Shown piece after piece: positions 16,436-64,000 of a DNA stretch of 64,000 nt. A program made the translations under genes and the position numbers. The stretch covers positions 1,178,001-1,242,000 of the forward strand of contig JAPEHQ010000003.1 of assembly GCA_027405735.1 (NCBI GenBank). The letters run 5' to 3'. Within the stretch, counting starts at the first letter, position 1, and every line of letters starts with the position of its first letter. The stretch comes from Mucor racemosus. Its lineage: Eukaryota; Mucoromycota; Mucoromycetes; Mucorales; Mucoraceae. The notes beneath the pieces were generated by a model, which searched no databases, had not been told where the DNA came from, and worked only from the letters and a program-made list of their open reading frames with translations.

Positions 16436-17473
16436 AGCCATCATTCAGTACAATAAAACATATCGGATAAATAAAATCACCACCCAACTATATTTAATGA
16501 TTTATCCTATGTGATCTATCATATACAAATCAAATTTCGTCTTTTTTTTTTGGTATAGGTTCTACATATAAGCTGCATTAAGAAGTAAAGTGATAGGGTG
16601 GTGGAATAATATAGTATTATAGACGAGTAGCAGAAAAAATTGCATCATCAAGGTGGAAGCTATTAGGATAATAGTTTTGAAAAGTGCGCTAATTACACTA
16701 TTTCATCAGACAAATATGTTTTGCATACTTCTATACAGTGTATGCAAGTTTTTTCATAGACTTTTGTGTTGCTCAGAGTTCATAAAGCTTACTTGAAATC
16801 GTTAGTGAAGTAGCTTAAATGCTACCACTATTTTATTTTGTTGCTCAAAAATTGATATCGTTAGATCACAAAAGGTTGAAAATTCAAAAATTCATTATCT
16901 TCAATCATTGATCTCTCTACCAATTTTTAAGACTTTAGAGATCACAATATATCAAACTAAAAAGTAGAATTTAAGACAGTAATTTACGCCATTACAATGT
17001 ACCGTTTAAAACTTTTAGGACTTTTATTATCAAGACATGTAAAATGAAAGGTCGTTTTCACATGTTATACAAACAGCATTGAACCACTTTTATGTCATTT
17101 TTTAACGCTAAAATATTCGCGGAATACGTAATGTTTTTTTGTTCTAGCTTGCTTGCTTCTAGCTATATGTTTTATGGAGTGATGATATATTATGTCCACA
17201 TTAAATATCTTGGGAAATATCCAAACGAACAAGAGCTAGTAATATCGCTTAAAATTTGAAAAACCTCAACAATGGCAGAGCAGTGGCAGACAGCTTTCCG
17301 ACAAGATAAAGGCCGCGTTTTAATCCAACAATTTAACCAGAAAATCAGTGGAATGCTAGAACATTAATTTGGGATACTGTTATAATTGCAGTGTATATTT
17401 TGAAACTTTCAGCCCATGTAGATCAATATTCATTGAGTGCGAGTGTTTTCTCCAGTTATTTTTTTTTTTTATG
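16436..17473. other. intergenic before repeat block
   Basis: AT-rich, with AATAAA hexamers near 16450-16470 suitable for 3'-end formation of the PITHD1-like gene. No other feature supported. Confidence 0.55.
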
Positions 17474-18110
17474 ATTTGATAGCTACTTGATTAATTAACC
17501 GCTGGGATGAATTAATATGGTATCATAATTGAGGTCCAAGCGTTCTTGGTAATTTTTGGATTAAACTTAGTACGCTAGGAGTTTCTTATTATATCCGATA
17601 TCAAGACTTTGCACTTCAATACATGTCGTAATCAATAGATTATAAGATGAATTGATACTGTAGAAAGTGATAACATATGATACTTGGTGGCATACAATAT
17701 AGTAGTATGTGGTTCATATTTTTGCCAATGGTCACTACTCTTCCAAAAAAAAAGCCGAACAATCTCCGAGAGCGGCCATCTAATAATATTTCCAAGCTTT
17801 AAATTTCTAAAAAAAAATTACCGGACATCCCGGACGCTGTTGTTTAAATATTCCAAGCAGCTATACGATGCAGGTATCGAAATTTCATACAAAAATCAAG
17901 GCTCGACTGTATTGCTATTAATTATTCAAAGGCTTATTTTAAGTAAACCATAAATACAACCTACAACATTATTAGTCTAATAACGGATTTAACTTGAAAA
18001 GTATAAGATGATATAACCAGATTCAAAAAAAAAGTCAATAAAATCACAAATTTAAAGGATTTATACATAAAAGCACTACGGCCGACCTGTGCTGCACAAG
18101 ATGATTTTGT

Positions 18111-18190
18111 TGTGCCCAGGTGGGCTGCACACTATAGCCTGATGAGTTGTCGTGCCCAGGTGGGCTGCACACTATAGCCTGATGAGTTGT
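18111..18190 (+). repeat. 40-bp tandem duplication inside copy A
   Basis: Two units of GTGCCCAGGTGGGCTGCAC followed by ACTATAGCCTGATGAGTTGT in a row; copies B (near 25959) and C (near 62119) have one unit. The unit core GCCCAGGTGGGC can form a small hairpin. Confidence 0.85.
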
Positions 18191-18759
18191 TGCGCCCACT
18201 GAATAATGGCTAAAAAGATAACAAGATGCACATGGGCACAACAAAAGAAGCTGCACACGAGCGAGCACAACGAAAAGCCTGTTTGTGTAGAATTATAGAT
18301 TCTGTCTGTGCGCATGGCATTAATCCCATCTCCCATGTGTGCATAATAGTAGAATTGCCCATAAGCATATCATTATCCTTATTTGTGCATAATAATAAAA
18401 TCTGACCATGAACATAATGATCTAATCGTATGGGCACATATTAGTTTGTACATGAGCATCGTGCCGTTCTCAAAATTCTATTGCATTTTTTTTACTGGAA
18501 TGGGTTTTTAAATTACATTTGCTTTTATTAATATAGATTATAGATAATACAATTCAATACGTTATTGATGTAGTAGAGCAATATATGCAAGAGCAAATAT
18601 ATTTACGCTTATTATCATTTGTAAATATGTTTATAATAGCTATAATGTTTACAGCAACAATAGTTTTTTCTGGAGCATAAACTTAAATTGCACTTACTGC
18701 TTAAATTTATATGCATGCCAAATCTAAGATGATAGATGTTACGATGTTACTTTATCGCA

Positions 18760-19201
18760 TGTTGTATTTGCATATATAAATGTACCTTAAATCGTAGTTT
18801 AAATATGACAATAAACTATGCCTTAACATATTTAGCATATGTGTCATATAAACACTGTAAATGATTACCCTGATAATCACATAAGCTAAGTTCTGATAAT
18901 CTAGACTTACAATAAAAGATAGAAAGTAAAGAATATTAATAATTAGTGTTACCAAGAGCAACTAAAGACTTTAGACTGATCATCTATATCTGAATATAAT
19001 TACATTAGCATAAGTGAGGATTGACACTAAATTTTAGTATGAGAACACTGTTCTAGACAGGTGTGTAAGCAATCCTTAAATCAAATATAAATAGCAGTAG
19101 ACATTCACCCTTCATTTGATTTCCCCATCTCGTTTTTATATTTAATAAAGATCGACCAATTCTCACGTACTTATCTTTCTTTATTACATACATTTACAAC
19201 A
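18760..19201 (+). mobile_element. solo LTR (442 bp) inserted in copy A
   Basis: Starts TGTTGTATTTG and ends CATTTACAACA, so it has TG..CA ends with a short inverted repeat. It is flanked by the 5-bp duplication TCGCA (18755-18759 and 19202-19206). Copy B shows the uninterrupted site with a single TCGCA at 26562-26566. Internally there is a TATA-like ATATAAATAG near 19085 and AATAAAG near 19144, in the order promoter then poly(A) signal expected in an LTR. No internal retroelement genes, hence a solo LTR left by recombination. Confidence 0.85.
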
Positions 19202-20674
19202 TCGCACATAAAATTTAAACAAATTAACCTTCTTTAAACTTACTATTTTAGTTTACGATTGTCAGCTGTAAAAAGATTTGTTTTCAAGTATAGGGACAAT
19301 TATAACTATGGTTATTAGCCACGACATTAGATTATCCTTTTTTTTTTTTTGGTTTCTATATCATTTGAAATTTTATCTCTTTTCTGGAACATTTCGTGGG
19401 TTTGGTGCCAGTTCTAGCTTTTTATTGAGTAGATATAAATATCATTGTCTTCGATTTGATCTGGTAATTAAGAAATACGTCCAACAATACAGCAGTAAAT
19501 AATGCTATTTGACCTTAGAATGCAGTTAATTATAAATGAAAATATCAGCCTCTAATATAGCGACTGCTACCTATATTAAAAACATTAGTCCTTTATGTTA
19601 ACATGCGTATTATGATAAAAGAAAAGAATATCAGCTTGATAGTCTGATATGCCTTATCAAACGGTGATTAATACCCTTGGAATATGAAAACAAAAAGAGA
19701 GAAACAACACACGTAGAAAAGAATTTTCAAGGCTTTACATTATTCAGCGCAATTAAAACCCTGCTAAATTGCACATCTCAGCCAATGTAAAAGCAGCATT
19801 ACAGCACATCAACCCATAAACTAAACAAAATAGGCAATATCTGCTATCTAGAAACAACATACATTTTTCTACTAGAAAAACCGTCTGTCATGTCATAAAT
19901 TCATTAAAAAATTGCAAAAGCGAGCCCGTAGAGCGACGCCGTAATTGAGCATAGCACGATCGAACGGCTAAGTCTCTTATACTGTGGTATATATCTAAGC
20001 TTTAAATGAAAATACGTTTTTTTTTTTTTACTTTTCTTATATTTAACCACGTACGGTCTGAAAATTCAGATTTTGTAGCGGACATTTTCGGGGCTCATTT
20101 CATCCTTACCAACACTCATGATTTTGATCAAAAAACAGAAAAATCAAGTTTTGATACCAAAATCAACGTTTAAATATACTACATTGTGAGAGAAAATTGT
20201 AGCTATAACTAATACACATTTTATAAAAGCTTTATATTAAATATTAAGTAATGAAATTTTGTACTTTTGTCCCAAAAACGGTTTTTTGATTAAAAGATTT
20301 TCATGTAATATTTTGCAATAAGAATATTGTATATTTTTTATTGAGCAAATAGAGTGCTAAATTCTGCATATGTGTATATTTTTTGTTTTTATAATTAGTA
20401 GTATAATAAACTCTAGATTTGCAAAACAAAAAAAAAAAAATTAAAAAATGTCAAAATTGATGATCTGGACAAAAATAATTTTATAAATTAATATTCCGCT
20501 TATAAGCTTTGTAAGTATTAAAAATAAGAGATTTTATAATACTTGAGAACTTTTTCAAGAATTTACGATGTTGTACCCACTTGTATCAAGCTTATTACTG
20601 TAAATATTTATACATGTTAATATTGTGTGGTAGTTTATTTGATGATAATATAATTATACTTTATAATTATTGCG

Positions 20675-20940
20675 CTAGAGGTGATTTACATTGAGTTTTA
20701 GTCTTATTTCTCCAATATCAGAAATATAAACATGGCCATCACTGGAACCTATTGCCGCCTTTTTATCCTCTTTGTCCCAAGCCAAATTATTTAATCCTTT
20801 ACCAGAACTAATAACTTAAGTACTTACAAATGGTTCCTCGGTATTTCCATTCAAATTTCATAAATCAAATTGACTTGTTCTTCCATCAACAGTAGTATCA
20901 AATGTATCATCAGTCTGCCTTATGATAAATGCCGCCAATC
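20675..20940 (-). pseudogene. captured fragment of a dynein intermediate chain (WD40 C-terminus), copy A
   Basis: On the minus strand, from an acceptor-like TTTTAG at 20941-20946, the frame reads TVDGRTSQFDL, a stop in place of the expected Trp, then NLNGNTEEPF. After a remnant intron of only about 20 bp (GTAAGT..TTAG) it continues SGKGLNNLAWDKEDKKAA and IGSSDGHVYISDIGE. Cytoplasmic dynein intermediate chains end with this pair of WD40 strands (VDG..DLWNLN..TE.P, then LN.. W....AVG.SDG.V.IYDVGE). The TGA, the vanishing intron and the frame break mark it as non-functional. The identical lesion in copy B shows that capture preceded duplication. Confidence 0.7.
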
Positions 20941-21299
20941 TAAAATTAGAAACATCCCATTGTCATTGTTATAAGCTATTAAAAGCTTGATTTTGAATAA
21001 TACAACAATTAAATAAAAGAAAAAATGATACTAATCACATATGGTGAGTATACAACATCTAATTGAGTTTAATGAAGAATGCTTTTGAACCCTTTGAAAA
21101 ATCCTGAAGGAAACACAACATCTTGGTCCACCTGTAATTTCTATCCATCAAAATGTCGCGAGTTTTACCACACAATGAAAGCATCTTTCATCTATCTTGA
21201 TCTCGATGTACATTGTTGCGTATCAGTTTTTTTACCCGTTGTATTTTCTCTGATTCATTAATATTTGGTCATATTGAACGATAGGATGTTAAATTAAAA

Positions 21300-23505
21300 T
21301 TTACTAGCATACTGTTGGTAGTTTTTTGTTATTATTTTAAAAACTTCATCCTACTATTATTATTATTACCTTTGATTAATATGATGGGACAAAATCTACT
21401 ATGGATAAATGTTAATGGCTACTTTACGAATGATGTACCTAAACTTAGAGGATTGAAACAAGGTGATCCGGTGTCAGCTATCTTGTATAACCTCGCCATT
21501 GAACCTTTTTTAAGATCTATACTAAATGATCCATTATATCGGGGCTATCAAATAAAATATGATGCTACTCATCCACTGTATTCTACTCAGACGCCTCTGG
21601 TACATAAGACAAAAATACTTTGTTATGCGGATGATGCACTTGCCTTTGTACAAAATCGGAATGATCTGCAAAGATTAGAGTACCACCTGGAAATATATTG
21701 TAAAGCTACTAATGCTAAGATTAACTACAACAAGGTTGAGGCGATATCTCTCTCTGGCAAAAACACAGGCTCTTGCTGGAGAAATGTTTTAACGGATATG
21801 AAGATTATCAAATTCACAACCATCGACGATACGACGGTACCAGTTACCTATCTCGGCTTCCCATTATTGCATTCAATCCGACAAAGAGAAGTCTTTATGG
21901 CGAGATTACTAGATAACCTGCGAACCACTGTCAAGATATACAATACTAGGACACTCTCGGTGATCGGCAAGGCAACAGTACTGAATAGTCTGTTACTATC
22001 AAAATTCTGGTACCTTGTAAGAGTTACGCCACTAACTCTTAATCTCTTAATGATATTCAATCCATCGTCTCATCAATAGCTAACCAGTATCTACATAAAG
22101 GGATTTTTCCAGTCATACCCTGGTCAACCTGCATAAAGCCAAAACCGCTGGGTGGTCTTGGAGCCTTGGATGTTGCTACACAACAATCTGCTCTGTATTT
22201 CCGTTGGGTTCAACCATTATTACAATCCTCCTCAAACCAGACAATACTCAACCATATGCTGCGAATGCTCATCAACAAACGTAATCATACTCAATATTAT
22301 GTGGAAATGGCATTGCTGTTTCCTGCTAGTAGAGCTTCAGGATTGTACAAACAGAGGACAACAACTGTAGACATGATATATCGCTCCATTGACAACGTTT
22401 CCGGAACTTTGAAGATGTAGATATTACCACGACGACTACAGTTAGGATATTACCTTTGAAGACGGTTTTGCAAGTTACTCCCTTGGTTCCTAAACTACCT
22501 GTCCGTGTCAAGTCTATGACGGTTGGTGATATATACACAAATGGCTCTTTGAATACATAACTCAAGGTCATCCCGATTAAACACATTGAGCAATATCATC
22601 GACAAGCTAGTAAAAAACTGTTACGACGAATTCAAGATGAATCAATTAGGTTACAGCCATACATAACACGACTGATACAGGACTCCCACACCGAAACAGA
22701 TGTAGCTACGGACATGACAGAAGATACAACAGAGCATAGCACCGCTGATTTCTCCCCCTTTGTTAAACAACTTTTCCCTGCTGAAAGAGCCAATATTGCT
22801 TACACAATTACAACGAGATCCTTTAGAAGAGCTTGCGCTACGACACATTGCTCCATCATACCTGGGATAAATTGGAAGCACTTTTGGGCACTCTCTTTGA
22901 CACTTGTACAAAGAAATGCTTTATACCGTTTTCTGACAAGGTCAATGCCGCACAAATCCATTCTCCACTATTTCAAAATTATTGATTCACCAACTTGCAT
23001 TATTTGTAAAAGCTCAAAAGAAAACGTTGAACATCTACTATTTCTGTGCCCACCTAAAGCCTTAATATAGAAAAGCATTATTTTCGAATTTCTATGGCCC
23101 ACAGTATCAGTGAAAGATATAATACATGCCTGCTCCACTCTAGACTTTACAAACGTGCAATATGTCTCTAAATCCTATACTACTGCACCTATGGTTATTA
23201 TTAATGACTTTGGTCAACATTTGGAGAGCTCACTTTCGATCTTTCGATTAATTTTCCATGATGCTCCCTTTAACCGGGACATGGTGGTAAAACAAATTAA
23301 AGAAGAGATCCAGTTGGTACATAATGAAAATGAAGTCCACAAACAATTATAAATATAACAACCTCAACAGATTATTGATTAACCTTAACTCTACCTCATT
23401 TACAATAATTGAAACATATATTATCCCATTTACATTTGCGACCGCCTCTTGGTAGGTTCTACGGATCTCTACTTACACGGAGCAATAAATAAAAACAACT
23501 TAAAG
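21300..23505 (+). pseudogene. LINE (non-LTR retrotransposon) relic: reverse transcriptase 3' half
   Basis: An open frame at 21315-22079 carries RT motif B (RGLKQGDPVS, 21447), the catalytic YADD (21624-21635) and motif E-like TYLGFPLL. Coding continues in two other frames: 22166-22420 (KPKPLGGLGALD precedes it in frame) and 22714-23070, which has a C-terminal zinc-knuckle region (FWALSLTLVQRNALYRFL, then CIICKSSKENVEHLLFLCP). The last open piece is 23110-23352. At least two frameshifts and several stops break it. The N-terminal RT palm and an endonuclease are missing, so it is 5'-truncated. The arrangement fits L1/Tad-like fungal LINEs. The 3' part ends in an AATAAATAAA sequence near 23486. 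It sits exactly between repeat copies A and B. Confidence 0.85.
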
Positions 23506-24518
23506 AAATATTACCATTGATTATAATTGTCAAACTGATTAACTCATCATACAGTATATCATATTACTATTTCGCATTGGTAGAGATTATATAATTGATA
23601 TTTGCATTTAACACTGGTGGATTGGAAAGTTGGTGTCTGTCTTTAGTTTGACGAATAATGCGTACTTTGGTTTTCCAGTATAATTCTAGGGGTTTCTACA
23701 TCTAAAAACTGAATTTTCCAATGCAGCTGTATCTGTTGAATATTACTTGAGTTTCTGTGCGTTGTAGCTCATGTTATTATACTAACTCCCATTTTGGCAA
23801 ATATCGCTTTACATTCATCCATATTTAATTTTTGTGTTATACAACAGCTTAATATTAATGTACTAACATTGAGTTTTGTGTATATCCATTACAAATTGGC
23901 ATTTTTTTTACATGATTTATACTACCAATTTCTGGAAAGCTCTATTATCATGTCCAAAAAAAAGCCTTAATTTGCTGAATTTCCCAAATAGCAAGAAACT
24001 AACAAATACATCATGTTCACATGTATGGGGATTAAAATTGTAAACCAAAGGAGAGTGACAAGCTGAACGGGTAGCGCATGCGCTACAAATTGAGTGCGGC
24101 ACACATATTCGTGGTGAGCTCAAACCCGCCAAAGGGGAAGCCCTTTGGTATTAGGATATGAATTTTGAAAGAGAATCTTCAATGACCTTGCTTCTCATCG
24201 AATATGATCCTCCTGTTTTTTTTCTTAGTACTTTTGCATATGTCTAGCAAAAAAATTTCTTTTTCATTAATGTATATGTCATGCATAATAGTAAATTTGG
24301 CTGGCAAAACCCGGCTCGACACCAAAACTATCAGCATCCATGGGTCATTGTAGTACGTTCAGCCAGCTCGAGCAACAAGTTGGTTACTTGCTACTTACAC
24401 CTAATAAGATCAGCAAGCCCATCAGTTCTTCTCAACAAATATAAATCCAAATGACCTCCCGTTGCAATGGCAGATGATACTTCTAGCGCTGATCCACAGA
24501 ATTGCAAAAGGTTTGGAC
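23506..24518. other. spacer between LINE relic and copy B
   Basis: No gene seen. Contains a tRNA-like/SINE-like segment at about 24050-24135. Confidence 0.5.
24050..24135 (+). repeat. possible tRNA-derived SINE head or tRNA relic
   Basis: Locally GC-rich segment with AACGGGTAGCGCATGCGCTA (A-box-like) and, about 45 nt later, GGTGAGCTCAAACCC (B-box-like). The spacing is near that of a pol III internal promoter. The acceptor-stem halves do not pair convincingly, so it is not called a tRNA gene. No second copy was seen in the window. Confidence 0.3.
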
Positions 24519-24950
24519 TTGTCGTGTATTTTCAGGTTCGATGAATAATACTTAAAAAAGAATACAGTTAAAAGAGAATGAGTAATGAATCAGTTCTTCG
24601 AATGTATAATAAAAACAAGATATCGTTTATTTAGATATAAAAGTATGGACTTTTATATTGATGTGACATTGAGATCCTGAGGTGTAACTTAATAAGGCAC
24701 TATTGAACCATTAGATCTGTTTGATAGCAATCTAAGGATTGAAATGGATCAATCATAATTTAACCGTTCTTGCAGAGCTTGTAAATTACCTTGTTGTTTC
24801 AATGCTGCGCTAAATGCGCTTGGTTGTTAATTTGATAGCTAATTGATTAATTAACCGCTGGGATGAAATAATATGGTATCATAATAATTGAGGTCCAAAC
24901 GTTCTTGGTAATTATTGGATTAAACTTAGTACGCTAGGAGTTTCTTATTA

Positions 24951-25445
24951 CAGTCGTGATTCCATTTAGTGGAATCGTTGGGAGGGAGAAAAGTGTCCAC
25001 TAAATCGAATTTTCCACTAAATCGAATAAATCATTTTCCGTAATATTGGATCAAAAAATGAGAATAAAAAGGCGTTACTAGTTTTAAGTATTAAACGATA
25101 TTGTTAATAAAGGCTTTTCATATTCGAGCAACTGAATTAAACAGTGGATAATAAGAAATTTATTAAAAAACTGAGGTAAATTAGGCATGTGATTTGGTTA
25201 TTCTCCATATTTCTTCTAATTTCATGGCTACCAGATCAAGCTATTACCGGCTAAATACAGTTTTATCCAATAGTATTTATATTTTACGAATATAGTGGAC
25301 TGGTAGAAACGAAATTGTCCACTATCCACTGAATCGATTCAGTGGATCTAGGCAGTAAAATTATGAAAAAAAAACGGGAGATTTCAAACTGTCCATTAAA
25401 TCGAAAATCCGTTATTCATGAGTCCACTAAATCGAATCACGACTG
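24951..25445. mobile_element. TIR element with TA target duplication (mariner/pogo-type, non-autonomous)
   Basis: 495 bp. The left end CAGTCGTGATTCCATTTAG and the inverted right end CAGTCGTGATTCGATTTAG form 26-bp terminal repeats with two mismatches (24951-24976, 25420-25445). It is flanked by TA (24949-24950 and 25446-25447). Copy A (17582-17597) shows the uninterrupted site with a single TA, so both ends are exact. The TIR motif CCACTAAATCGAAT is repeated sub-terminally on both sides. No transposase frame, so mobilisation in trans by a Tc1/mariner-pogo superfamily transposase is inferred from CAGT ends and TA duplication. Confidence 0.9.
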
Positions 25446-28034
25446 TATATCCGATATCAAGACTTTGCACTTCAATACATGTCGTAATCAATAGATTGTA
25501 AGATGAATTGATACTGTAGAAGGTGATAACATATGATACTTGGTGGCATACAATATAGTATATGATTCATATTTTTGCTAATGGTCACTCTTCCAAAAAA
25601 AGCCGAACAATCTCTGGAAGCGGCCATCTAATAATATTTTGAAGCTTTAAATTTCTAAAAAAAATTACCGGACATCCCGGACTCTGTTGTTTAAATATTC
25701 CAAGCAGCTATACGATGCAGGTATCGAAATTTCATACAAAAATCAAGGTTCGACCGTATTACTATTAATTATTCAAAAGCTTATTTTAAGTAAACCATAA
25801 ATACAACCTACAACATTATTAGCCTAATAACGGATTTAACTTGAAAAGTATAAGATGATATAACCAGATTCGAAAAAAAAGTCCATAAAATCACAAATTT
25901 AAAGCATTTATATATAGAAGCCACTATGGCCGGCCTGTGCTGTCCAAGATGATTTTGTTGTGCCCAGGTGGGCTGCACACTATAGCCTGTTGAGTTGTTG
26001 CGCCCACTGAATTATGGCTAAAAAGATAACAAGATGCACATGGGCACAACAAAAGAAAATGCACACGAGCATAACGAAAAGCCTTTATGTGTAGAATTAT
26101 AAATTCTGTCTGTGTGCATGGCATTAATCCCATGTGTGCATAATAGTAGAATTGCCCATAAGCATATCATTATCCTTATTTGTGCATAATAATAAAATCT
26201 GACCATGAACATAATGAGCTGATTGTATGGGCACAGATTGGCTTGTACATGAGCATCGTGCCGTTCTCACAATTTCATTGCATTTTTTACTGGACTAATG
26301 GGGTTTTAATTACATTTGCTTTTATTAATAATATAGATTATAGATAATACAATTCAATACGTTGTTGATATAGTAGTAGAGTAATACATGCAAGAGCCAA
26401 TATATTTACAATTATCATCATTTGTAAATAATGTTTATAATAATAGCTATAATGTTTACAGCAACAATAGTTTTTTCTCGAGCATAAACTTAAATTGCAC
26501 TTACTGCTTAAATTTATATGCATGCCAAATCTAAGGTGATAGATGTTACGATGTTACTTTATCGCACATAAAATTTAAACAAATTAACCTTCTTTAAACT
26601 TACTATTTTAGTTTACGATTGTCAGCTGTAAAAAGATTTGTTTTCAAGTATAAAGACGATCATAACTATGGTTATTAGCCACGACATTAGATTATCCTTT
26701 TTTTTTTTTGGTTTCTATATCATTTGAAATTTTATCTCTTTTCTGGAACATTTCGTGGGTTTGGTGCCAGTTCTAGCTTTTTATTGAGTAGATATAAATA
26801 TCATTGTCTTTGATTTGATCTGGTAATTAAGAAATACGTCCAACAATACAGCAGTAAATAATGCTATTTGACCTTAGAATGCAGTTAATTATAAATGAAA
26901 ATATCAGCCTCTAATATAGCGACTGCTACCTATATTAACGACATTAGTCCTTTATGTTAGCATGCGTATTATGATAAAAGCAAAGAATATCAGCTTGATA
27001 GTCTGATATGCCTTATCAAACGGTGATTAATACCCTTGGAATATGAAAACAAAAAGAGAGAAACAACACACGTAGAAAAGAATTTTCAAGGCTTTACATT
27101 ATTCAGCACAGTTAAAACCCTGCTAAATTGCACATCTCAGCCAATGTAAAAGCAGCATTACAGCACATCAACCCATAAACTAAACAAAATAGGCAATATC
27201 TGCTATCTAGAAACAACATACATTTTTCTACTAGAAAAACCGTCTGTCATGTCATAAATTCATTAAAAAATTGCAAAAGCGAGCCCGTAGAGCGACGCCA
27301 TAATTGAGCATAGCACGATCGAACGGCTAAGTCTCTTATACTGTGGTATATATCTAAGCTTTAAATGAAAATACGTTTTTTTTTTTTTACTTTTCTTATA
27401 TTTAACCACGTACGGTCTGAAAATTCAGATTTTGTAGCGGACATTTTCGGGGCTCATTTCATCCTTACCAACACTCATGATTTTGATCAAAAAACAGAAA
27501 AATCAAGTTTTGATACCAAAATCAACGTTTAAATATACTACATTGTGAGAGAAAATTGTAGCTATAACTAATACACATTTTATAAAAGCTTTATATTAAA
27601 TATTAAGTAATGAAATTTTGTACTTTTGTCCCAAAAACGGTTTTTTGATTAAAAGATTTTCATGTAATATTTTGCAATAAGAGTATTGTATATTTTTTAT
27701 TGAGCAAATAGAGCGCTAAATTCTGCATATGTGTATATTTTTTGTTTTTATAATTAAAAGTATAATAAACTCTAGATTTGCAAAACAAAAAAAAAAAAAA
27801 TTAAAAAATGTCAAAATTGATGATCTGGACAAAAATAATTTTATAAATTAATATTCCGCTTATAAGCCTTGTAAGTCTTAAAAATAAGAGATTTTATAAT
27901 ACTTGAGAACTTTTTCAAGAATTTACGATGTTGTACCCACTTGTATCAAGCTTATTACTGTAAATATTTATACATGTTAATATTGTGTGGTAGTTTATTT
28001 GATGATAATATAATTATACTTTATAATTATTGCG

Positions 28035-28296
28035 CTAGAGGTGATTTACATTGAGTTTTAGTCTTATTTCTCCAATATCAGAAATATAAACATGGTCATC
28101 ACTGGAACCTATTGCCGCCTTTTTATCCTCTTTGTCCCAAGCCAAATTATTTAATCCTTTACCAGAACTAACTTAAGTACTTACAAATGGTTCCTCGGTA
28201 TTTCGATTCAAATTTCATAAATTAAATTGACTTGTTCTTCCACCAACAGTAGTATCAAATGTATCATCAGTCCGCCTTATGATAAATGCCGCCAAT
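28035..28296 (-). pseudogene. captured dynein intermediate-chain fragment, copy B
   Basis: Same fragment as at 20675-20940 on the minus strand: FNL, stop, NLNGNTEEPF, a residual intron of about 17 bp, then SGKGLNNLAWDKEDKKAA and IGSSDGHV. It shares the Trp-to-stop change and the shrunken intron with copy A. Confidence 0.7.
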
Positions 28297-28638
28297 CTAA
28301 AATTAAAAACATCCCATTGTCATTGTTATAAGCTATGAAAAGCTTGATTTTGAATAATACAACAATTAAATAAAACAAAAAATGATACTAATCACATATG
28401 GTGAGTATACAACATCTAATTGAGTTTAATGAAGAATGCTTTTGAACCCTTTTGAAAATCCTGAAGCAAACACAACATCGTGGCCCTCCTGTAATTTCTA
28501 TCCATCAAAATTTCGCGATTTTCACCACACAATAAATGCATCTTTCATCTATCTTGACCTCGATGTACATTATTGTGCATCAGTTTTTTACCAGTTGTAT
28601 TTTCTTTGTTTCATTGATATACAGTCATTTTGAACGAT

Positions 28639-30326
28639 GATTTGTAGCATTGTCAAAAAAGAGAAAAAAGAATAAGTGCTTCAAGAGTTTTCTGCATATT
28701 AAATTAAAAAATTTAGTATCAATGATTGCACTTAACTATGCTTTTTGAATCTATTATTGATGCTAATCAGAATAATTAGTACTTTTATTCAAAAGTAAGC
28801 TTTGCTTTATACATTTGCATTCACCTATTCAATAAATAAGATTGCATTTATTATCCGTTATATCAATCAACCAACTTCAACTTGATTCGATACATTTGAC
28901 AATTAAAAGCCTAAATTATACTTGAGCCACTAGGTATCGCCACAAAAACAATCTCATATAAGTCGACGAAGCATCACAATTTGAATCATTTTTTTGTGTT
29001 CATAGATCTGAGTTTTCTCACACATTTATAGATCGCTGTATAAACCATATCTATCTTTTTAAGTTCACTAAAATACTGCACATTGAATGCCAACATCGTA
29101 CTTGATAACATGCCTTACTTTATTGCGAGTCAACACAACTAATTTGAAGCTAGTTGAGCCTCAGCAGTTAAATCAGATAAATATGAGATTAGACAATCCC
29201 TTTTAATAGTTTTGCATACCATGATCTAATAATGGACCGTTATTATACATGCACCAATCAAGGATGGTGAGTTAACTCTAATAATGGATTAACGAGTTGG
29301 TTAGCAGTATAAACGAAATATTAAATTCAAAATAGCAATTGAATGAGCAATAAACGATAAACCATGTAAATTAGAGTAATTGAATTGTTTCAAGCGTTTT
29401 GAACTGAATATGCCTTTACTTTTGACCTATAAAAATTGATTCATTGGTAAAATCAATTAACAATTAATAATTATGGCGTACCTTTGATAGTTGGTAGTGG
29501 TATACAAGACAACATCTTGTTTTCCTCTTCTTGGCTGTTGGCCACTAAATAGAAACAAATATTTTTTAGAAACTAAATAGATTAATATGAGTTTATTCAT
29601 TAATTCAAATCAGGTCAACAATACTATACATACTTTTATAATCACCAATTTTTCTGCAGGTAGATATCCATTTTAGACCAAAAACGTATTGATTATAATG
29701 CAGATGATGGAACAAAATTACTAAGCCTTGGATGCTTTTTTTTATCTGAGAAAAATATTATAACGCTCCCTAACATTAACAGTTAATAATTCATTTCCAA
29801 ATAGACAACAATGGGAAAAACATGTAGTTGTACCTGGTACTTGATTTCAGTTTACAAAAATATTGGTCTTTTTGTTGTAACTTTAAACATAAACAAGAGG
29901 TCTGAGGAAAGAGTGAGGAAGAAAAAAGAAAAATAATCCTAAATCAGTTGATTTTGTGTGTTACAAACAGAAATTTACAAAGGCATAAATACTTTTAATG
30001 TTGCCGAACAGATTGTTGTAGTTGTCCCCATTTTGTCTCCGAAAGAAGACGAACATGGGCAGAATTCTTTCAAACCCCAAATTTCAAATTGATATATCTC
30101 GTCAATAAGGCAATTCTGTTGAATCAGAGTAGCTCACATATGCTTTAAAACATTCAAATTATTTTCGTTATTAATTATATTATGATTGATATACTTTAGT
30201 AAATTGACTAAAAAACCTCGATCTCATTGCTCTGCTCATCTGGACTGCCTGATCTGTACAAATTTTTTTATTCTGCCCAGCTGTGCAGATCATCATGCCT
30301 ATAAAAAGCATAGTTCGACCGTAATG
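28639..30326. other. intergenic, no gene seen
   Basis: AT-rich spacer right of copy B. No convincing coding frame, RNA or repeat border was identified. Confidence 0.5.
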
Positions 30327-31425
30327 TATTGATCTAACATTGACCTAACATCGGTTGTAAAAAATTAAGCGCCTAAATCGAGGTGCTCTTTTTTTGTATT
30401 CATAAGATAGATCCAACTGAAAATTACTCTGTATTTTTTGTTTCAGCGAAAAATATTGATTTTTCGTCGAGATAATTAAAATAATAGTTGATATCACAGC
30501 TTACAGCTTATGATAACTGGGTTCCAAAATTTATTTTAAAAAATGGACGAAAAATGATGAAAAAAACAAAATCATTTAATTACTCATGAACTTCAAAGTA
30601 AGTCAACCTAGTATACTAAATAGTTTTTGTACAGTTTTGGATTCTGCATCCATCTAAAAAAAATTCAGACAAACATTTCACATTAAATTTTGCGTAAAAT
30701 GCAATTGAAATTTTGAAGGTTTTTTGAAGATACACATCACTTTTCATAAGCATATTTTAAATTTAAATAATAGAAATTATGCATGTCCAAATTATCTATT
30801 AATCGAGATATTATTTAACCTTTTAGCTGCATTTTTCGTAGAGAAAACGATATTTTTGTCTAAATTTTTTTTGAAATTCAGAATTTGGGATGAGGGTATA
30901 CAAGGGAAAATCGAGGTTAGAAATGAGGGTATCTCTTTGTACACATTTTTGAGGATATCCCCACGAAAAATTAATGTTTTGAAAAAAACTAAATTGGGCC
31001 CGAGAGAGCTTAACAAACTTGATGACATGGATGCAAAACAAACCCTGTTCAATTTAACCGATATTTTGAAATCTACAGTAAAAATGCCAAAAAAAAACGA
31101 AAAAAAAATAAAAGTGCTCAGAATTTTTTTATACTAAAATATGTTATAAAGCACGTCAAAACAAGTAAGTTTTGTTATCAAATTTTTTTAGTATAGCTTA
31201 ATTTTTCGTAGAGATATGAAGCTTCAAAGTTTTCAATCCTTTAGCAGTGAAATACGCGTAAAAAATCTGAAACATTAGCGCTGAAAAATTAATAACAATT
31301 GCAAAAAATAGGATGTTTTCAGACACTTATTTTTGAATTAAAGCTGAACATCTCAGGTACATTGTCATATTTTTTTTTCTTGATGTTACTTAGTGAAAAA
31401 ACGAGTTAAGCAGAGATCAAAAATG
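30327..31425 (+). repeat. dispersed repeat E, copy 1
   Basis: Aligns by eye with 41087-42180 along its whole length, for example the shared block ATTGATTTTTCGTCGAGATA. The right end lies near AAGCTGAACATCTCAGGTAC. Inside, a 138-codon frame (30724-31137) has a stretch YTFLRISPRKIN..LKKTKL.PREL that is conserved in the other copy; it has no ATG start and no family I recognise. No terminal repeats or target duplication were found. Confidence 0.75.
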
Positions 31426-32541
31426 GATCCGACTTTTAATGCAAGTTTACCTAATTTTCTACCTTTCTGTGAAACCCTGTCGATCTCAAGAACAAGCTGT
31501 GTATTTTGAAATAGCTATGAACCCTAGCTATTGTGCATCATCAAGTAAATGTAACAAGCCTTGATAAACAGGTGAATTTCTATTGTGATTTCAAAATGAG
31601 ATAAAAAAAAAAAAAGAGTGTTTTATTGATAATTTAGTAAAAGTTCTTCTAGTATATAATAAATCAATGCTACAATAAGAGATGAAATAAAACTCAATTG
31701 TATGTTAAACGGTTTTAGGGGTTCGTTGTACGTTTTTTTAATCAAGCTGAATGAATTCCAGAAATTAAATGCTGTTTGAATCATGAAATTCTATTGTTGA
31801 TTCCAATATGGATAGAGGGGCCAATTACATGGTGCCGGGAACCACGGGCCATTTTAGTATGAAATATAGAACAGAAGACGCGATTAAATAAACTTCAGTT
31901 ACATGTGAAGAATAAATCAAGATATTCTGAATACATTAGTGACACTTGTAATTCCCTAATTTTATCTTGTGCATTCGCTATACATGCACTGTATTATTTA
32001 TATTCGTCCATTTGCTACTTTTTATAAAGAATTCTCATCACCAACTCAAAAAAGCAGAATGGAAATCCACATCAAGCCAATGATAGACATGCTTTTAGTT
32101 ATTTTTTATGTTTTATAATAACTTGCAAGGCCCACTTTCAACCAATTAAATAGATTGGTTACACTTTGTGCGCTTTATCTAAATTTTTCCATCTTATCAA
32201 CCAAATAAGAATAATACGAAATGGAAAATCTTTCCAAGAAAAAAAAAAAAAAAGGTTCCTATAAAAGTTGTTGCATAAAAAAAAATAATACAAAAGGATA
32301 AAGAGAAGCAACATAAACATATTGAAAAAAGGAATCACAAGAAATCAAAGGAAAAGATTCCAGGGGAATACGGATATTGAGACAGATGTCGGGCGGATGT
32401 GCAGCCAGATTACTAAATGAGGATATTTCAAACCCTAAATAAATTTTTCAAAAAGAGCTATATTATGAAATCCTTTCCTATTCTTCTTCTTTTTTCCCTT
32501 TAACTCTTTTCAACAAGATTAAAAAATAAATAAATTAAAAA
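31426..32541. promoter_or_regulatory. upstream region of ERG6
   Basis: Spacer leading to ERG6. It holds an inverted CCAAT pair at 32140-32160 and, at 32474-32517, a strongly pyrimidine-rich stretch just before the ATG, typical of a highly transcribed fungal gene. Nothing coding seen. Confidence 0.4.
32140..32160. promoter_or_regulatory. inverted CCAAT-box pair upstream of ERG6
   Basis: AACCAAT (32140-32146) and ATTGGTT (32154-32160) form a perfect 7-bp inverted repeat with a 7-bp spacer, 382 bp before the ERG6 ATG. CCAAT is the core recognised by the fungal HAP/NF-Y complex; use here is inference. Confidence 0.35.
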
Positions 32542-39500: not shown

Positions 39501-41086
39501 CGTTGCAGAATTTTCATGAAAATTTCATTTCGTTTCTAAATTCTATTTGTTTGTAAAAGATGCTGCTAATCCAAGTAATCGTATTCATGCATTAGACTCT
39601 AAATTAAAACCACTCTATGTTCATGACACGTGGAGGGAAAATTAATGCAGTCTGTTTTATTGATTTACCCCAAACTTCAACCGTATCTCCACCTTTCCGA
39701 CCGCGACAGATTTTCCTTGCAAAATGATGTGCTCCAATTTCTAAAAATGGTAGCATCTATATTAAAGTTCAAACACGTTTTATAGGAATATTGTGCTTGC
39801 AATGTCAATGGTTCAATTCAACAATTAATTAAATATTGAAAATCTCAAAATTACACACACACACAAAAAAAAAAATAACAAATCAGCGTACTAGGCGTTG
39901 CCAAAATAAACCTTCGATTTGCATTTTGGGTTTGAAGAAACCACTAATAAAATTCATCACACGTGTCAAATGAAATTTTGGCAATTTGGAGTTATATTTA
40001 CAACGCAATATTTTCAGAAATCAATCGTTTTTTTTTAATGATCGAGGATGCAACCGACAAATCACCGTACCACTTTTCTTTATCAAAAATCAATATTTTT
40101 TAAATTAGAAAGCCAAATCAAATGGATGTTAGTTATCCATATGATGCATATGCTGCTAAAAATAAACTATTATTGTATTTGCTTTATTACAAAGCCTTTC
40201 AAACCTTTAAAACTCATATATATTTACAAAACATGACACCATAGAATTAAGTAAGTCTCATTAGTTTATTAGTGCTATTCATAAATTTACTTTTTCTTAA
40301 TATATTGCTTGCCAAATTTGATTTAATCGAGTATTAAAATTTTAGTGTACAGTGTCTGAACTTTTTTAATGAAATTATTTGTTTTCTATTTTTAAAACTA
40401 TCCCCACTTCCACTGCTTGGCTTATTTTTATTATTATTATTAATTGCATTTGCTTAGCGGTCGTTTCGATTATTACAACTTTGCTTCATGCTTGCTCAAA
40501 TTGCTCAAATTCAAAAGAGATCTGCTTTCAAATAAAAAAATGCTATACATTTTTGAAATCTTGCTATTAAATGCTCGCCTAATTTAGTTGGTTTTTCTGC
40601 ATATAGCAGTTACAAGCATTTTCCTGTTTATTTTATTTTAATCGGAGGAACAGAGATTTTCTCTGGGAAACTTATGCTATACTCCTCCAAAGACAACTTT
40701 TGGCTTATGAAATCAAGATATATTATTCTTGCATTTACTGCGCATTAAATGCAACTTCAAAATTAAATATCAAACCATTATTTAATGTTATAAAAATTTT
40801 CAAAGAATATCTGAAATAATCCATACAAAATAGTTTAAGTAGGTACACGTTTTCCTTTATCCATTTCCACAGCAAAATTCACTGAGAAAGGTTGTGTTGT
40901 TGGTTCATTACAGTTATAAAAAAGTAGGTTTTAGATGGTTTCAGATAGTTTTAGAATTTTTTCACCTAATATTGAGCCGAATTACGTGAAATCTTCAAAG
41001 ACGATATACCTTCCCTTTATGGACAATTTATATTTGTCCAAAATAAAAGTTAATGATACCAGAATATTAGTGCACTGACCAAAAAT
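36520..41086. other. gene-poor AT-rich region
   Basis: About 4.6 kb upstream of STE12 without a supported gene. A purine-rich strip (36604-36645) and a CATAGCAACCAGGAAC direct repeat (37439 and 37470 area) are seen. An (AAT)n microsatellite is at 39219-39258. Open frames here are short and lack motifs. Confidence 0.5.
39219..39258. repeat. (AAT)n microsatellite
   Basis: Thirteen AAT-type triplets with one AGT interruption in the middle. Confidence 0.85.
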
Positions 41087-42180
41087 TATTGATCTAATAT
41101 TGACCTAAAATCAATTGTAAAATATTAAGCACCTAAATCGAGATGTTATTTTTTTTGTATTCACAAGATAAATACAACTGAAAATTACTCTGCATTTTTT
41201 GTTTCGGCGAAAAATATTGATTTTTCGTCGAGATAATTAAAATAATAGTCAACATCACAGCTTAATATCTATGATAACTGGGTTCCAAAATTGATATGAA
41301 AAAATGATTGAAAAATGATTTAAAAGACAAAATTGTTTAATTGCTTAAGAACTGCAAAGTAAGTCGACCGAGCGTATTAAATGGTTTTTGTACAGCTTTA
41401 AATTCTACAATTATTTCAATAAAATTTAAACAAAAATGTTACATTAAATATTGCGCAAATTGCGATTAAAATTTTGAAGGTTTTTGGAAGACATACATCA
41501 CTTTTAATAATTATGCTTTAAATATAAATAATGAAGATAATGTACAATAAAAGTATCTATCGATTGCGCTATTGCTGAATCTTTTAGCTGCATTTTGCGT
41601 AGAGAAAACGAGATTTTTATCCAATTTTTTTCAGATTCAGAATTTAGGGTGAGGGTATACAAGGGGAAAATGGAAGCCAGAAATGAAAGTATCTTTTTGT
41701 ACACATTTTTAAGGATATCTCCACGAAAAATTAATATTTTAAAAAAGACTAAATTGGACCCGAGAGAGCTCAACGAGCTTAATGACATGAATGCAAAAAA
41801 AATGTCGCTCAATTTAACAAATATTTTGAAACCTACTATAGAAATGCCAAAAAAATGAAAAAAAAATAAAAGTGCTCAGAATTTTTTTATATTAAAATAT
41901 GTTATAGAGTACTCCAAAAAAAGTAAGTTTTATTATTAGAAAGTTTTAGAATAGCTTAATTTTTTCTGGAGATATGAAGCCTCAAAGTTTTCAATCCATT
42001 AGCAGTGAAATACGCGTAAAAAATCTGAAACCTTAGTACTGAAAAATTAATACCAACTGCAAAAAGTAGGATATTTTTGGATACTTGTTTTTGGATTAAA
42101 GCTGAACATCTCAGGTACATTGGCATATAATTTTTTCTTGGTGTTATTTAGTGAAATCAAAAAGTAGAGCAGGGATGAAA
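41087..42180 (+). repeat. dispersed repeat E, copy 2
   Basis: Second copy of the 30327-31425 repeat in the same orientation, roughly 80% identical by eye with small indels. The frame at 41595-41858 retains YTFLRISPRKIN.LKKTKL.PREL as in copy 1. Open frames also run on the opposite strand, so coding status is undecided. Confidence 0.75.
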
Positions 42181-43099
42181 AGTGAGACCCAGTTTTTAAG
42201 GAAAAAGCAGTGAATTTTATGCGTTTTTGAGTCTTTCGTGAGATATAAAATAAATTTAGGGATAGGTAGCATAATGCGACCAATTCATGTCGGTTTAGTA
42301 GTGCCTAAAGTATATCCTAAAAATGTTTAGTATGAGCTTAATTATAGAAAAGATAGGACGCTCCGATTTCGAAGATTGAAAAACGAATTCTTTGAAAACT
42401 CAAATTCTATTCGAATGGATATCTACAAAAAAATATCAAAATCCATAATTTATGAATTAATGATTTGCATGGACCCAATTTTCTCCACCAGAAATCAGTA
42501 TTTTTTTTTAAGATGAAAAATGCATCAAAAGTGCTTTAATTCTTTAGTATATACAGTAAGTATAAGACGTATAAGATGGGTGCAAGAGTAATATTGTAGA
42601 TGTATCTTCATAATTTTTTCACTAGGGAAACTACCAAAAATCTTTTATAAAGCGTTTTAAAAACAGGCATATTTCACTGCGAAGCCAATGTTATACCTTG
42701 CTTTCCCAGAAAGGTAGTCGCTATTGTAAACTCATTTTTAATGCAATAGAAATTGAAATTCAGGTATTTAAAGAGTTTATTCTTTAAACAAATTAGATTG
42801 AATAAAACGTAATAGTTGCAATAGTGTCTAATGATACTTGGGCTGTATTTGTAGATTTTTTGTTTTTCACTTATTCTATTAGAAAAGTGGGAAATTGCGA
42901 TATCAAAATTAACCATAGAATTAAAAATAATAGATAAATTTCAGGTCCCGTTTATGGTGTTGAAGATGCAATTTGATCTTTATAGCTAACAATTATTCAT
43001 ACTTTGGAAAAAAAGTAGAAAAAAAAAAACCTAATAGACTTGATATGTGATTTAGCACTTGTAAGATCAAAAGTGCTACAGTAAACTGTCGAAAACTAA

Positions 43100-61167: not shown

Positions 61168-63490
61168 GTGCCGTATATTTTCATGATTGATAAATAATAC
61201 TTAAAAAAGAATACAATTAAAGCAGAATGAGTAATGAGTAATGAATCAGTTCTTCAACTGTATAATAAAAACAAGATATCATCGTTTATTTAGATATAGA
61301 AGTACGGCTTTTTACATTAATTTGACATTGAAATCCTGAGATGTAATTTAAGGCACTATTGAACCATTAGATCTGTTTGATAGTAATCTATGTATTGGAA
61401 TGAATCAATCATAATTTAGCCTTACTTGCAGAGCTTGTGGGTTGTCTTGTTTCAATGCTGCGCTAAACGTGCTTGTTGGATGTTGATTTGATAACTACTT
61501 GATTGATTAACCGCTGGGATGAAATAATATGGTTTCATAATTGAGGTCCAAGCGTTCCTGTTAATTACTAGATTAAAATTAATACGCTAAGAGTTTCCTA
61601 TATCCGATATGAAGACTTTGAACTTCAATACATGCTGTAGTCAATAGATTGTAAGATGTATTGATACTGTAGAGAGTGATAACATATGGTACTTGATGGC
61701 ATATAACATAGTATATGATTCATATTTTTGCCAATGGTCAGTCTTCCAAAAAAAAATCCCGAACAATCTCCGGAAGCGGCCATCTAATAATATTTCCAGG
61801 CTTTAAATTTTTAGAAAAATCACCGGACAGCCCGGACGTGGTTTTTTAAATATTCCAAGCAGCTATAAGATGCAGGTACCGAAATTTCATACAAAAATTA
61901 AGGTTCGACGGTTCGACTGTATTGCTATTAATTATTCCAAGGCTTATTTTAAGTAGAACATAAATACAACTTACAACATCATTAGCTTAATAACTGATTT
62001 AACTTGAAAAGTATAAGATGATACAACCGGATTCAAAAAAAGTTTATAAAATCACAAATTTAAAGGATTTATATATAAAAGCACTACGGCCGACCTGTGC
62101 TGCACAAGATGATTTTGCTGTGCCCAGGTGGGCTACACACTATGGCCTGATGATGAGTTGTTGCGCCCACTGAATAATGGCTAAAAGGATAAAAAGATGC
62201 ACATGGGCACAACAAAAAAATTGCATACGAAGCATAACGAAAAGCCTGTATGTGTAGAATTATAGATTCTGTCCGCGTGCATGAGAATAATCCCATGTGT
62301 ATGACATTAATCCCATGTGTGCATAACAGTAGAATTGCCTAAAAGCATATCATTATTTCTATTTGTGCATAATAATAAAATCTGACCATGGACATAATGA
62401 ACTGATCGTATGGGCACAAATTGGTTTGTACATGAGCATCGTGCCGTTCTCAAAATTTCATTACATTTTTTACTGAAATAATGGGGTTTTAAATTACATT
62501 TGCTTTCACTAATATAGATTATAAACGATAATACAATTCAATACGTTGTTGATGATGTAGAGCAATACAGGCAAGAGTCAATATATTTACGGTTATCATC
62601 ATTTGTAAATATGTTTATAATAGCTATAATATTTACAGCAACAATGGTTTCTGCTCGAACATAAACTTAAATAACACTTACTGCTTAAATTTAAATGCAA
62701 GCCAAATCTATGATGATAGATGTTATGATGTTACTTTATTACACATAAAGTTTAAACAAATTAACCCTCTTTAAACTTACTATTTTAGTTTATGATTGTC
62801 AGCTGTACTAAGATTTGTTTTCAAGTATAGGGACAATCATAACTATCGTAATTAGGTAAGACATTAGATTATCCTTTTTTTTGTTTCTATATCATTTGAA
62901 ATTTTATCACTTTTCTAAAACATTTCCTGGGTTTGGTGCCAGCCCTAGCTTTTTATGAGTAGATATAAATATCATTGTCTTCGATTTGATCTGATAATCA
63001 AGTAATACGTCGAACAATACAGCAGTAAATAATGCTATTTGATCTTAGAATGTAGTTATTTATAAATAAAAATATCACCCTATAATATAACGACTGCTAC
63101 CTATATTAAAAACATTAGTCCCTTATGTTAGCATGCGCATTCAGATAAAAGAAAAGAATACCAGCTTAATAATAGTCTGATATGCCTCATCAAACGGTGG
63201 GTACAGTATATGCTTGGAACATGAGAACAAAAAGAGAGAAACAACACACGTAGAAAAGAATTTTCAAGGATTTACATTATTCAGCGCAATTAAACCCCTG
63301 CTAAATTATTGCTCATTTCAGCTGATGTAAAAGCAGCATTACAGCGCATCAACCCATAAACTAAACAAAATAGGCAATATCTGCTATTATAGAAACATAC
63401 ATTTTTCTACTAGAAAAACTGTCTATCATGCCATACATTCATTAAAAAATTGCAAAAGCGAGCCCGTAGAGCGACGCCATAATTGAGCAT
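61168..63490 (+). repeat. low-copy repeat element, copy C
   Basis: Homologous to copy B from its left end (GCCGTATATTTTCATG) to TAATTGAGCA, about 2.3 kb, and more diverged (about 10% by eye) than A and B are from each other. It lacks both the solo LTR and the TIR element, confirming these as later insertions. It stops before the dynein-fragment half and is joined directly to copy D. Confidence 0.88.
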
Positions 63491-64000
63491 TGTCGTATAT
63501 TTTCAGGATTGATAAATATTACTTAAAAAAGAATACAATTATAAAAGAATGAGTAATTAATCAGTTCTTCAACTGTATAATAAAAACAAGATATCGTTTA
63601 TTTAGATGTAAAAGTATGGCCTTTTATATTGATTTGACATTGAGATCCTGAGATGTAATTTAAGGCACTATTGAACCATTGGATCTGTTTGATAGTAATC
63701 TATGGATTGAAATGGATCAATCATAATTTAACCGTTCTTGCAGAGCTTGTGAGTTGTGTTGTTTCAATGCTGCGCTAAATATGCTTGGATGTTGATTTGA
63801 TAACTACTTGATTGGTTAACTGCTGGGATGAAATAATGTGGTGTCATAATTGAGGTCCAAGCGTTCTTGGTAATTACTGGATTAAACTTGGTACGCTAGG
63901 AGTTTCTTATATCCGATATCAAGACTTGCACTTCAATACATGTCGTAGTCAATAGATTGTAAGATGTATTGATACTGTAGAAGGTGATAATGTATGATAC
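63491..64000 (+). repeat. low-copy repeat element, copy D (cut by window edge)
   Basis: Begins TGTCGTATATTTTCAGGATT, the same left boundary as B and C, and runs off the window at a point equal to about 25540 in copy B. Head-to-tail with copy C. Confidence 0.88.

Follow-up and report, generated by a model that had tools for sequence, protein, structure and literature searches.

The 64,000-nucleotide stretch analysed here (the window, C3:1178001-1242000, of a genome that is fungus-like, judging from the neighbouring genes, and was searched as 53.2 Mb in 54 contigs) holds related repeats in which a decayed piece of a cytoplasmic dynein intermediate chain gene lies on the minus strand, and it raises the question of how a fragment of a host gene came to be multiplied in this manner. 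The original prediction had named four copies (A to D, in their order along the window) of a low-copy repeat that had captured the fragment. The account favoured here, with moderate confidence, is that a non-autonomous CACTA-like transposon captured the dynein piece at the DNA level and multiplied, and that its 5' half was later joined to a long terminal repeat (LTR)-like unit. Positions are those of the window unless a contig (C) or fetched locus (L) is named, and features lie on the plus strand unless otherwise stated.

The existence of repeat copies was borne out by comparison of the window with itself, in which A and B were 97.4% identical over 2,083 bp (19201-21282 and 26561-28638) and, in their left parts, 93.5% (17590-18158 and 25446-26006) and 90.8% identical (18141-18759 and 25948-26566). 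B and C shared 87.9% identity (25446-27311 and 61599-63490), and the first ~520 bp of D matched C at 88.9%. The supposed low copy number, however, did not survive a search of the genome. With B as a DNA query, 102 genome matches were obtained from the best 39 of 3,682 candidates scored, while a peptide search placed the dynein fragment at no fewer than 150 sites (150 of 150 scored, the best 150 of 2,294 candidates). The terminal motif CACTACGGCCGAMCTRTGCT, allowing at most one mismatch, was matched 1,080 times (583 forward and 497 reverse), as against 0 matches for a reversed control. All of these copy numbers are lower bounds, and family matches elsewhere in the genome were mostly 80-93% identical. 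The family is therefore real, high in copy number and decayed, and each copy is a nested patchwork. For close reading 25 loci were fetched, picked by their similarity to the repeat and not as a random sample. No Rfam match at the gathering threshold was found in 17000-32000, and no tRNA gene within the window.

The WD40 exon fragment lies at 20699-20956 in A and at 28059-28313 in B, on the minus strand in both, as had been predicted; in A, its TVDG.. stretch is at 20861-20893 and SSDGHVYISDIGE at 20708-20746. The two copies share a TGA stop (FDL-stop-NLN / FNL-stop-NLN) and a later TAA stop. Searched against PDB, the fragment matched DYNC1I2 at an E-value of 6.4e-7, ranked under four designed repetitive WD proteins. 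The use of an open copy as query returned eight proteins, four of which (P0003, P0004, P0006 and P0007) look like genuine dynein intermediate chain exons; P0007 is labelled as such by its source, and P0003 matched human DYNC1I2 at 2e-25. The repeat-like P0001 was 75% identical to P0003 over 69 amino acids and, together with P0002, P0005 and P0008, bears by our own reading the diagnostic residues of the repeat family, suggesting that other public data, too, contain a relative of the repeat. The fragment is thus a piece of a cytoplasmic dynein intermediate chain gene, comprising a WD40 exon and the start of its intron, and the identification first proposed stands. Part of the next exon is probably carried as well, since beyond the intron remnant a probable exon start, KWVQHRKFLKKF, is found on the minus strand at 20547-20582 in A and 27907-27942 in B. 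Judged by eye, it resembles the human DYNC1I2 stretch DEWARFGRTLAEI.

Each of the 25 fetched loci contained 150 bp or more of the dynein piece, and 31 distinct fragment sequences, with the two arms of L029 counted apart, were compared. The codon read as TGA in A and B encodes tryptophan (TGG) in 21 of the 31, whereas eight, counting A and B, have TGA; the later TAA stop is found in 23, and a tryptophan-bearing stretch like KWVQHRKFLKKF follows the exon in 26. The splice donor GTAAG, directly after the codons for GE, is kept in 18 copies, A and B not among them, which argues that the capture was not from spliced RNA. Diversity at codon positions 1, 2 and 3 was 0.133, 0.126 and 0.107, similar to that of the flanks and with no deficit at positions 1 and 2, so that by this test no coding constraint on the fragment was seen in the window's family. 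Most probably the piece was taken up in the form of genomic DNA and has since evolved as a passenger.

The component that carries the piece begins at a sharp edge, CACTACGGCCGACCTGTGCTGCACAAG and variants, at 25922 in B, 18074 in A and 62082 in C. In B, the terminus CACTATGGCC.. at 25922 is answered at 30326 by the opposite end, ...AGCATAGTTCGGCCGTAGTG, which is an imperfect inverted repeat of the first, and copy B is accordingly an element of 4,405 bp (25922-30326) with CACTA-type terminal inverted repeats (TIRs) CACTATGGCCGGCCTGTGCT / CATTACGGTCGAACTATGCT. The termini shared by the family, CACTACGGCCGA, have the CACTA..TAGTG form by which CACTA (EnSpm) elements are recognised. The inverted copy at 30326 also disposed of a model in which a non-LTR element had its 3' end at 25922. 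Diagnostic termini, which the original prediction had not seen, are therefore present, and the copy ends placed at 21286 in A and 28638 in B prove to be the point at which the two diverge and not an element end, B running on to its inverted terminus.

These ends recur across the genome. In 9 of the 25 fetched loci, L032 among them, similarity to B breaks off at 25920-25923, and 16 of the 19 5'-type ends listed adjoin sequence other than the spacer (25554-25921) that runs from the LTR to the CACTA-type 5' terminus in aligned copies of the composite order described below as type 1. Eleven inverted 3'-type ends, found by motif, were listed, two of them being the arms of one duplication. Two-ended copies measure 3.5-4.7 kb, with TIRs of ~20 bp. 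Subterminal GC-rich 6-mers, chosen post hoc after the 5' end had been viewed, were strongly enriched in all four elements counted: the first 350 bp contained 8-11 and the last 350 bp 2-4, whereas the middle had 0.09-0.28 per 350 bp. Subterminal repeated short motifs and a 3-bp target site duplication are described for CACTA (EnSpm) elements (PMC8978399), and CAC..GTG ends with 3-bp duplications for fungal EnSpm (PMC12730594); En/Spm elements make up 0.68% of the Rhizopus oryzae assembly (PMC2699053). In line with the predicted lack of a transposition gene, a six-frame search of the B element at E up to 1 found no Pfam domain, and so no transposase, helicase or Rep domain. B is a non-autonomous TIR element with host coding DNA aboard, as is characteristic of Pack-TYPE elements. 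In a separate observation, a 655-amino-acid open frame at L022:2-1966 (minus strand) was DDE-type transposase-like, its DDE_3 similarity being weak and below the cut-off.

The sharp left boundary proposed for the copies belongs to another component. TGTCGTATATTTTCAGG is the start of a ~530-bp LTR-like unit with TG..CA ends that is also found alone, and it is present at 24519, 61169 and 63491 only; A lacks it, being truncated at 17472-17474, with 17474 aligning to B 24830. Of the 40 best genome matches, a set that includes those of the window itself and favours long matches, 39 show homology continuing leftwards past this boundary. The old unit of B, beginning TGTCGT.., spans 24519-25553 and would measure ~537 bp without the insertion at 24949-25445. 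Solo LTRs start TGTCG and end at or near GGTGGAATACAACA, and 5-bp target duplications were found at five of the six with a located right end (L015, L017, L026, L034 and L035; not L027), that of L017 flanking both arms of one inverted duplication; L013, L023 and L024 stand outside this count, their right ends being unlocated or misplaced. In at least 40 places (the best 40 scored), a young form of the unit was matched at 96-100% identity, with 527 or more of its 529 bases covered. With its TG..CA ends, its length and its 5-bp duplications, the unit resembles the solo LTRs of LTR retrotransposons, but a six-frame search of the associated sequence 23509-24521 revealed no gag or pol domain such as these elements have, and an LTR-internal-LTR element is only a candidate here. 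One young pair in the same orientation, 6.6 kb apart (C25:31666-32193 and C25:38296-38818), is a candidate full-length element. A 1745-amino-acid integrase family considered as autonomous partner lay within 2.5 kb of 2 of the 40 full-length young LTR places (on C9 and C2) at differing distances (1,751 and 2,399 bp), and the association is not claimed.

The two components are found joined in a recurrent order, type 1, at many loci: the CACTA 5' half (equivalent to 25922 to 28638), a 3' segment (21283-21378 plus 23509-24518), the LTR, the spacer and the next CACTA-type terminus. The same order holds through A, the A-B interval and B, broken by a 2.1-kb fragment of a long interspersed nuclear element (LINE). 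The left part of copy A (17472-18073) consists of an old LTR-like unit, of which the 3' part remains (17472 to ~17697), and of ~370 bp leading up to the CACTA-type terminus, after which the 5' segment of the CACTA-type element, starting CACTACGGCCGACCTGTGCT, occupies 18074-21282. The start of the type-1 3' segment, which in many copies comes next after the CACTA 5' half, lies at 21283-21378, where the LINE interrupts, and the remainder (23509-24518) ends AAGGTTTRGMCT directly before the LTR of B. Copy C (61169-63490) consists of an LTR-like unit (61169 to ~61711), the spacer, the terminus at 62082 and the 5' segment of the element, which is cut by D. Rather than a further copy of the family, D (63491-64000 in the window) is a young single LTR of 525 bp in all (C3:1241491-1242015) that runs past the window end. 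It appears to have inserted within C, because the distance from D to the next type-1 landmark is 1,334 bp, against the 1,327 bp expected from B if C resumes; landmarks beyond D lie at C3:1243350-1243431, 1243514-1244294 and 1245386-1245848, the last read in L040. A tandem arrangement of C and D was rejected on these grounds.

Taken together, a course of events can be proposed in which the WD40 exon, the donor site of the intron and probably the start of the next exon entered a non-autonomous DNA transposon whose ends were of CACTA type (EnSpm-like). With transposase supplied from elsewhere, this transposon would have spread, presumably by cut and paste, to about a thousand detectable termini, the gene piece travelling as a passenger under no coding constraint. 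Later the 5' half of the element, dynein piece included, would have fused to the LTR-retrotransposon-like unit, if the order of events is as supposed, and this LTR composite, too, would have multiplied, in many cases as units joined head to tail. A, B and C would be old, decayed members, further broken by the LINE, by an insert resembling a miniature inverted-repeat transposable element (MITE) and probably by the solo LTR D. The original idea of a non-autonomous element that carried part of a dynein intermediate chain gene and then multiplied is upheld, with a nested patchwork in place of a single element. As the component that holds the gene piece ends in CACTA-type inverted repeats, it can be read as a Pack-type (Pack-CACTA-like) element but not as a Helitron.

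Several observations weigh against this account. No clean target duplication was found at the seven two-ended candidates, where 2-bp matches were seen in L013 and L015 only, and an empty site joining both flanks was shown for none of the seven. A genome search with PF02992 (CACTA TNP2) gave only 2 degenerate matches, and one for Plavaka gave none, all control genomes being silent as well. Membership in the CACTA group fits the termini, yet with neither a clean target duplication nor a transposase it stands as an unproven candidate. On the side of the LTR, the type-1 unit has internal sequence on both sides and no target duplication there, inspection by eye revealed neither a TGG primer site nor a polypurine tract beside it, and no copy in hand has two LTRs that enclose gag-pol together with a primer site and a purine tract, leaving a complete LTR element as a further unproven candidate. 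As 19 of the 25 fetched loci contain LTR pieces, the CACTA-type and LTR components are hard to separate. Finally, a set of better-preserved exon matches, described below, is not accounted for.

The same story of capture could apply to a TIR element of another cut-and-paste group that ends in CACTA, such as ESTA or a Tc1-like element with TA duplications, and this is possible though unlikely. The fungal EnSpm-like ESTA makes TA duplications (PMC12730594), and TA stands on both sides of L015 and AT of L013; however, only 2 of the 11 listed 3' ends have flanks beginning TA.

Somewhat less probable is that it was the LTR-like element which acquired the dynein piece, through template switching in the course of reverse transcription, the CACTA-type ends being later or unrelated. 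The 5-bp duplications of the LTR-like unit, the recurrence of the type-1 order around it at many loci and the frequency of LTR pieces would all suit such an origin. However, L014, L016 and L019 hold the dynein piece in a copy whose CACTA-type 5' end stands beside other sequence, with no type-1 spacer, and they are among the 6 of 25 loci in which no LTR piece was found (the three being loci of 8-9 kb). The retained intron donor would be expected of DNA capture or of antisense capture, and the lack of a gag or pol domain in 23509-24521 also speaks against an LTR origin.

It was also considered whether the same dynein exon had been taken up and amplified more than once, giving rise to the window family and to about 39 better-preserved copies, 16 of them without stops; this is judged improbable. 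A 130-amino-acid human DYNC1I2 query gave at least 150 matches. Forty of those listed align from query residue 16-22 onwards at 40-70% identity; of these, 17 are free of stops and 12 extend to residue 101-107. The best (C4:386014-386277, 57% identical to human DYNC1I2, no stop) is a candidate for the host dynein gene exon. By eye, none of the 40 is among the listed matches of the fragment search, and the exon edge at which they begin is that of the window family. The remaining 39 could represent a second captured family or a young subfamily, or could be family members whose similarity was too low for the fragment list. If the second exon set is independent, the capture of one exon on repeated occasions would be an unusual and testable finding. 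The exon would then be a recurrent cargo, perhaps a useful one, either as a portion of an element protein or, where inverted pairs are near-perfect, by giving rise to double-stranded RNA directed at the host gene.

Plain segmental duplication of a dynein pseudogene region, with no mobile element, is very unlikely. Seven near-identical inverted pairs in 6 of the 25 loci and the 97% identity of A and B over 2 kb are of the kind it would produce, but constant ends stand beside differing flanks, the terminal motif is found 1,080 times, and the genome-wide search suggested at the outset did reveal shared ends; local duplication remains a secondary process. The pairs (at least 500 bp at 95% identity or more, five of the seven at 99-100%) lie in L013, L016, L017, L027, L029 and L030, and no direct duplication of that size and identity was found in the 25 loci. 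Different loci are mostly only ~85% alike, in contrast to the near-identical pairs within loci, and among the fragment matches listed, all eight equal-score pairs within 15 kb on one contig were inverted. Such pairs may have arisen by aberrant transposition or by gene conversion, or may be artefacts of assembly.

Pack-MULEs carry Mutator-type TIRs and a 9-bp duplication; such an element was set aside, the ends here being of CACTA type and no 9-bp duplication being seen by eye at the seven candidates. Helitrons end in TC..CTRR and have no inverted repeats. Although gene capture by Helitrons is known in fungi (PMC4289320), one can hardly have acted here, where the ends are CACTA..TAGTG inverted repeats and the element has no helicase or Rep domain.

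Other repeats contribute to the patchwork. The LINE fragment (21379-23508) is unrelated and 5'-truncated, has RVT_1 and zf-RVT domains, and is flanked by a 15-bp target duplication matching at 14 of 15 positions (TATTACC[T/A]TTGATTA); the site is uninterrupted in L020, L025, L031 and L034. The reverse transcriptase at 21315-22079 was therefore rejected as a gene of the element itself. The 497-bp MITE-like insert in the LTR of B (24949-25445) has short inverted ends TACAGTCGTGATTC / GAATCACGACTGTA and a TA-rich target, with a relative at L031:6453-6935. A separate high-copy repeat of ~1.1 kb (30328-31440) adjoins the 3' terminus of B; it was found in 14 of the 25 fetched loci, and its second window copy (41084-42181) has no TIR motif nearby.

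Among known systems, gene capture by Pack-CACTA elements comes closest. For Pack-TYPE elements, including Pack-CACTA, the uptake of DNA is believed to proceed via tandem insertion and re-mobilisation (PMC8903248). Like these plant elements and soybean Tgm-Express (PMC1947982), the present family is non-autonomous and dispersed, with CACTA-type ends and a piece of a host gene; in contrast to them, with many genes in few copies, it has one dynein piece in very many copies, in a fungus-like genome, with an LTR-like fusion and no clean target duplication at the seven candidates. The common bean pvCACTA1 (PMC4938662) is likewise an extremely abundant non-autonomous CACTA..TAGTG family, with no coding capacity, but it is short, with TIRs of 145-158 bp and clear 3-bp AT-rich duplications, whereas TIRs here are ~20 bp and copies 3.5-4.7 kb. 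Fungal EnSpm / CMCT transposons (PMC12730594) share the 5'-CAC..GTG-3' ends and the carriage of a non-transposase gene; theirs is a TET/JBP gene beside a transposase, with 3-bp duplications, whereas B has no Pfam domain. Among the open-access PubMed Central papers viewed, none described a captured dynein piece in a transposon, which tests such an absence weakly.

Gene capture by transposons is well known, and what is described here looks like a new example and not a new kind: a case of DNA-level capture of a gene fragment by a putative CACTA-type element, amplified to at least 150 places in a fungus-like genome. For annotation it urges caution, as dynein-like WD40 matches in such genomes may be mostly repeat.

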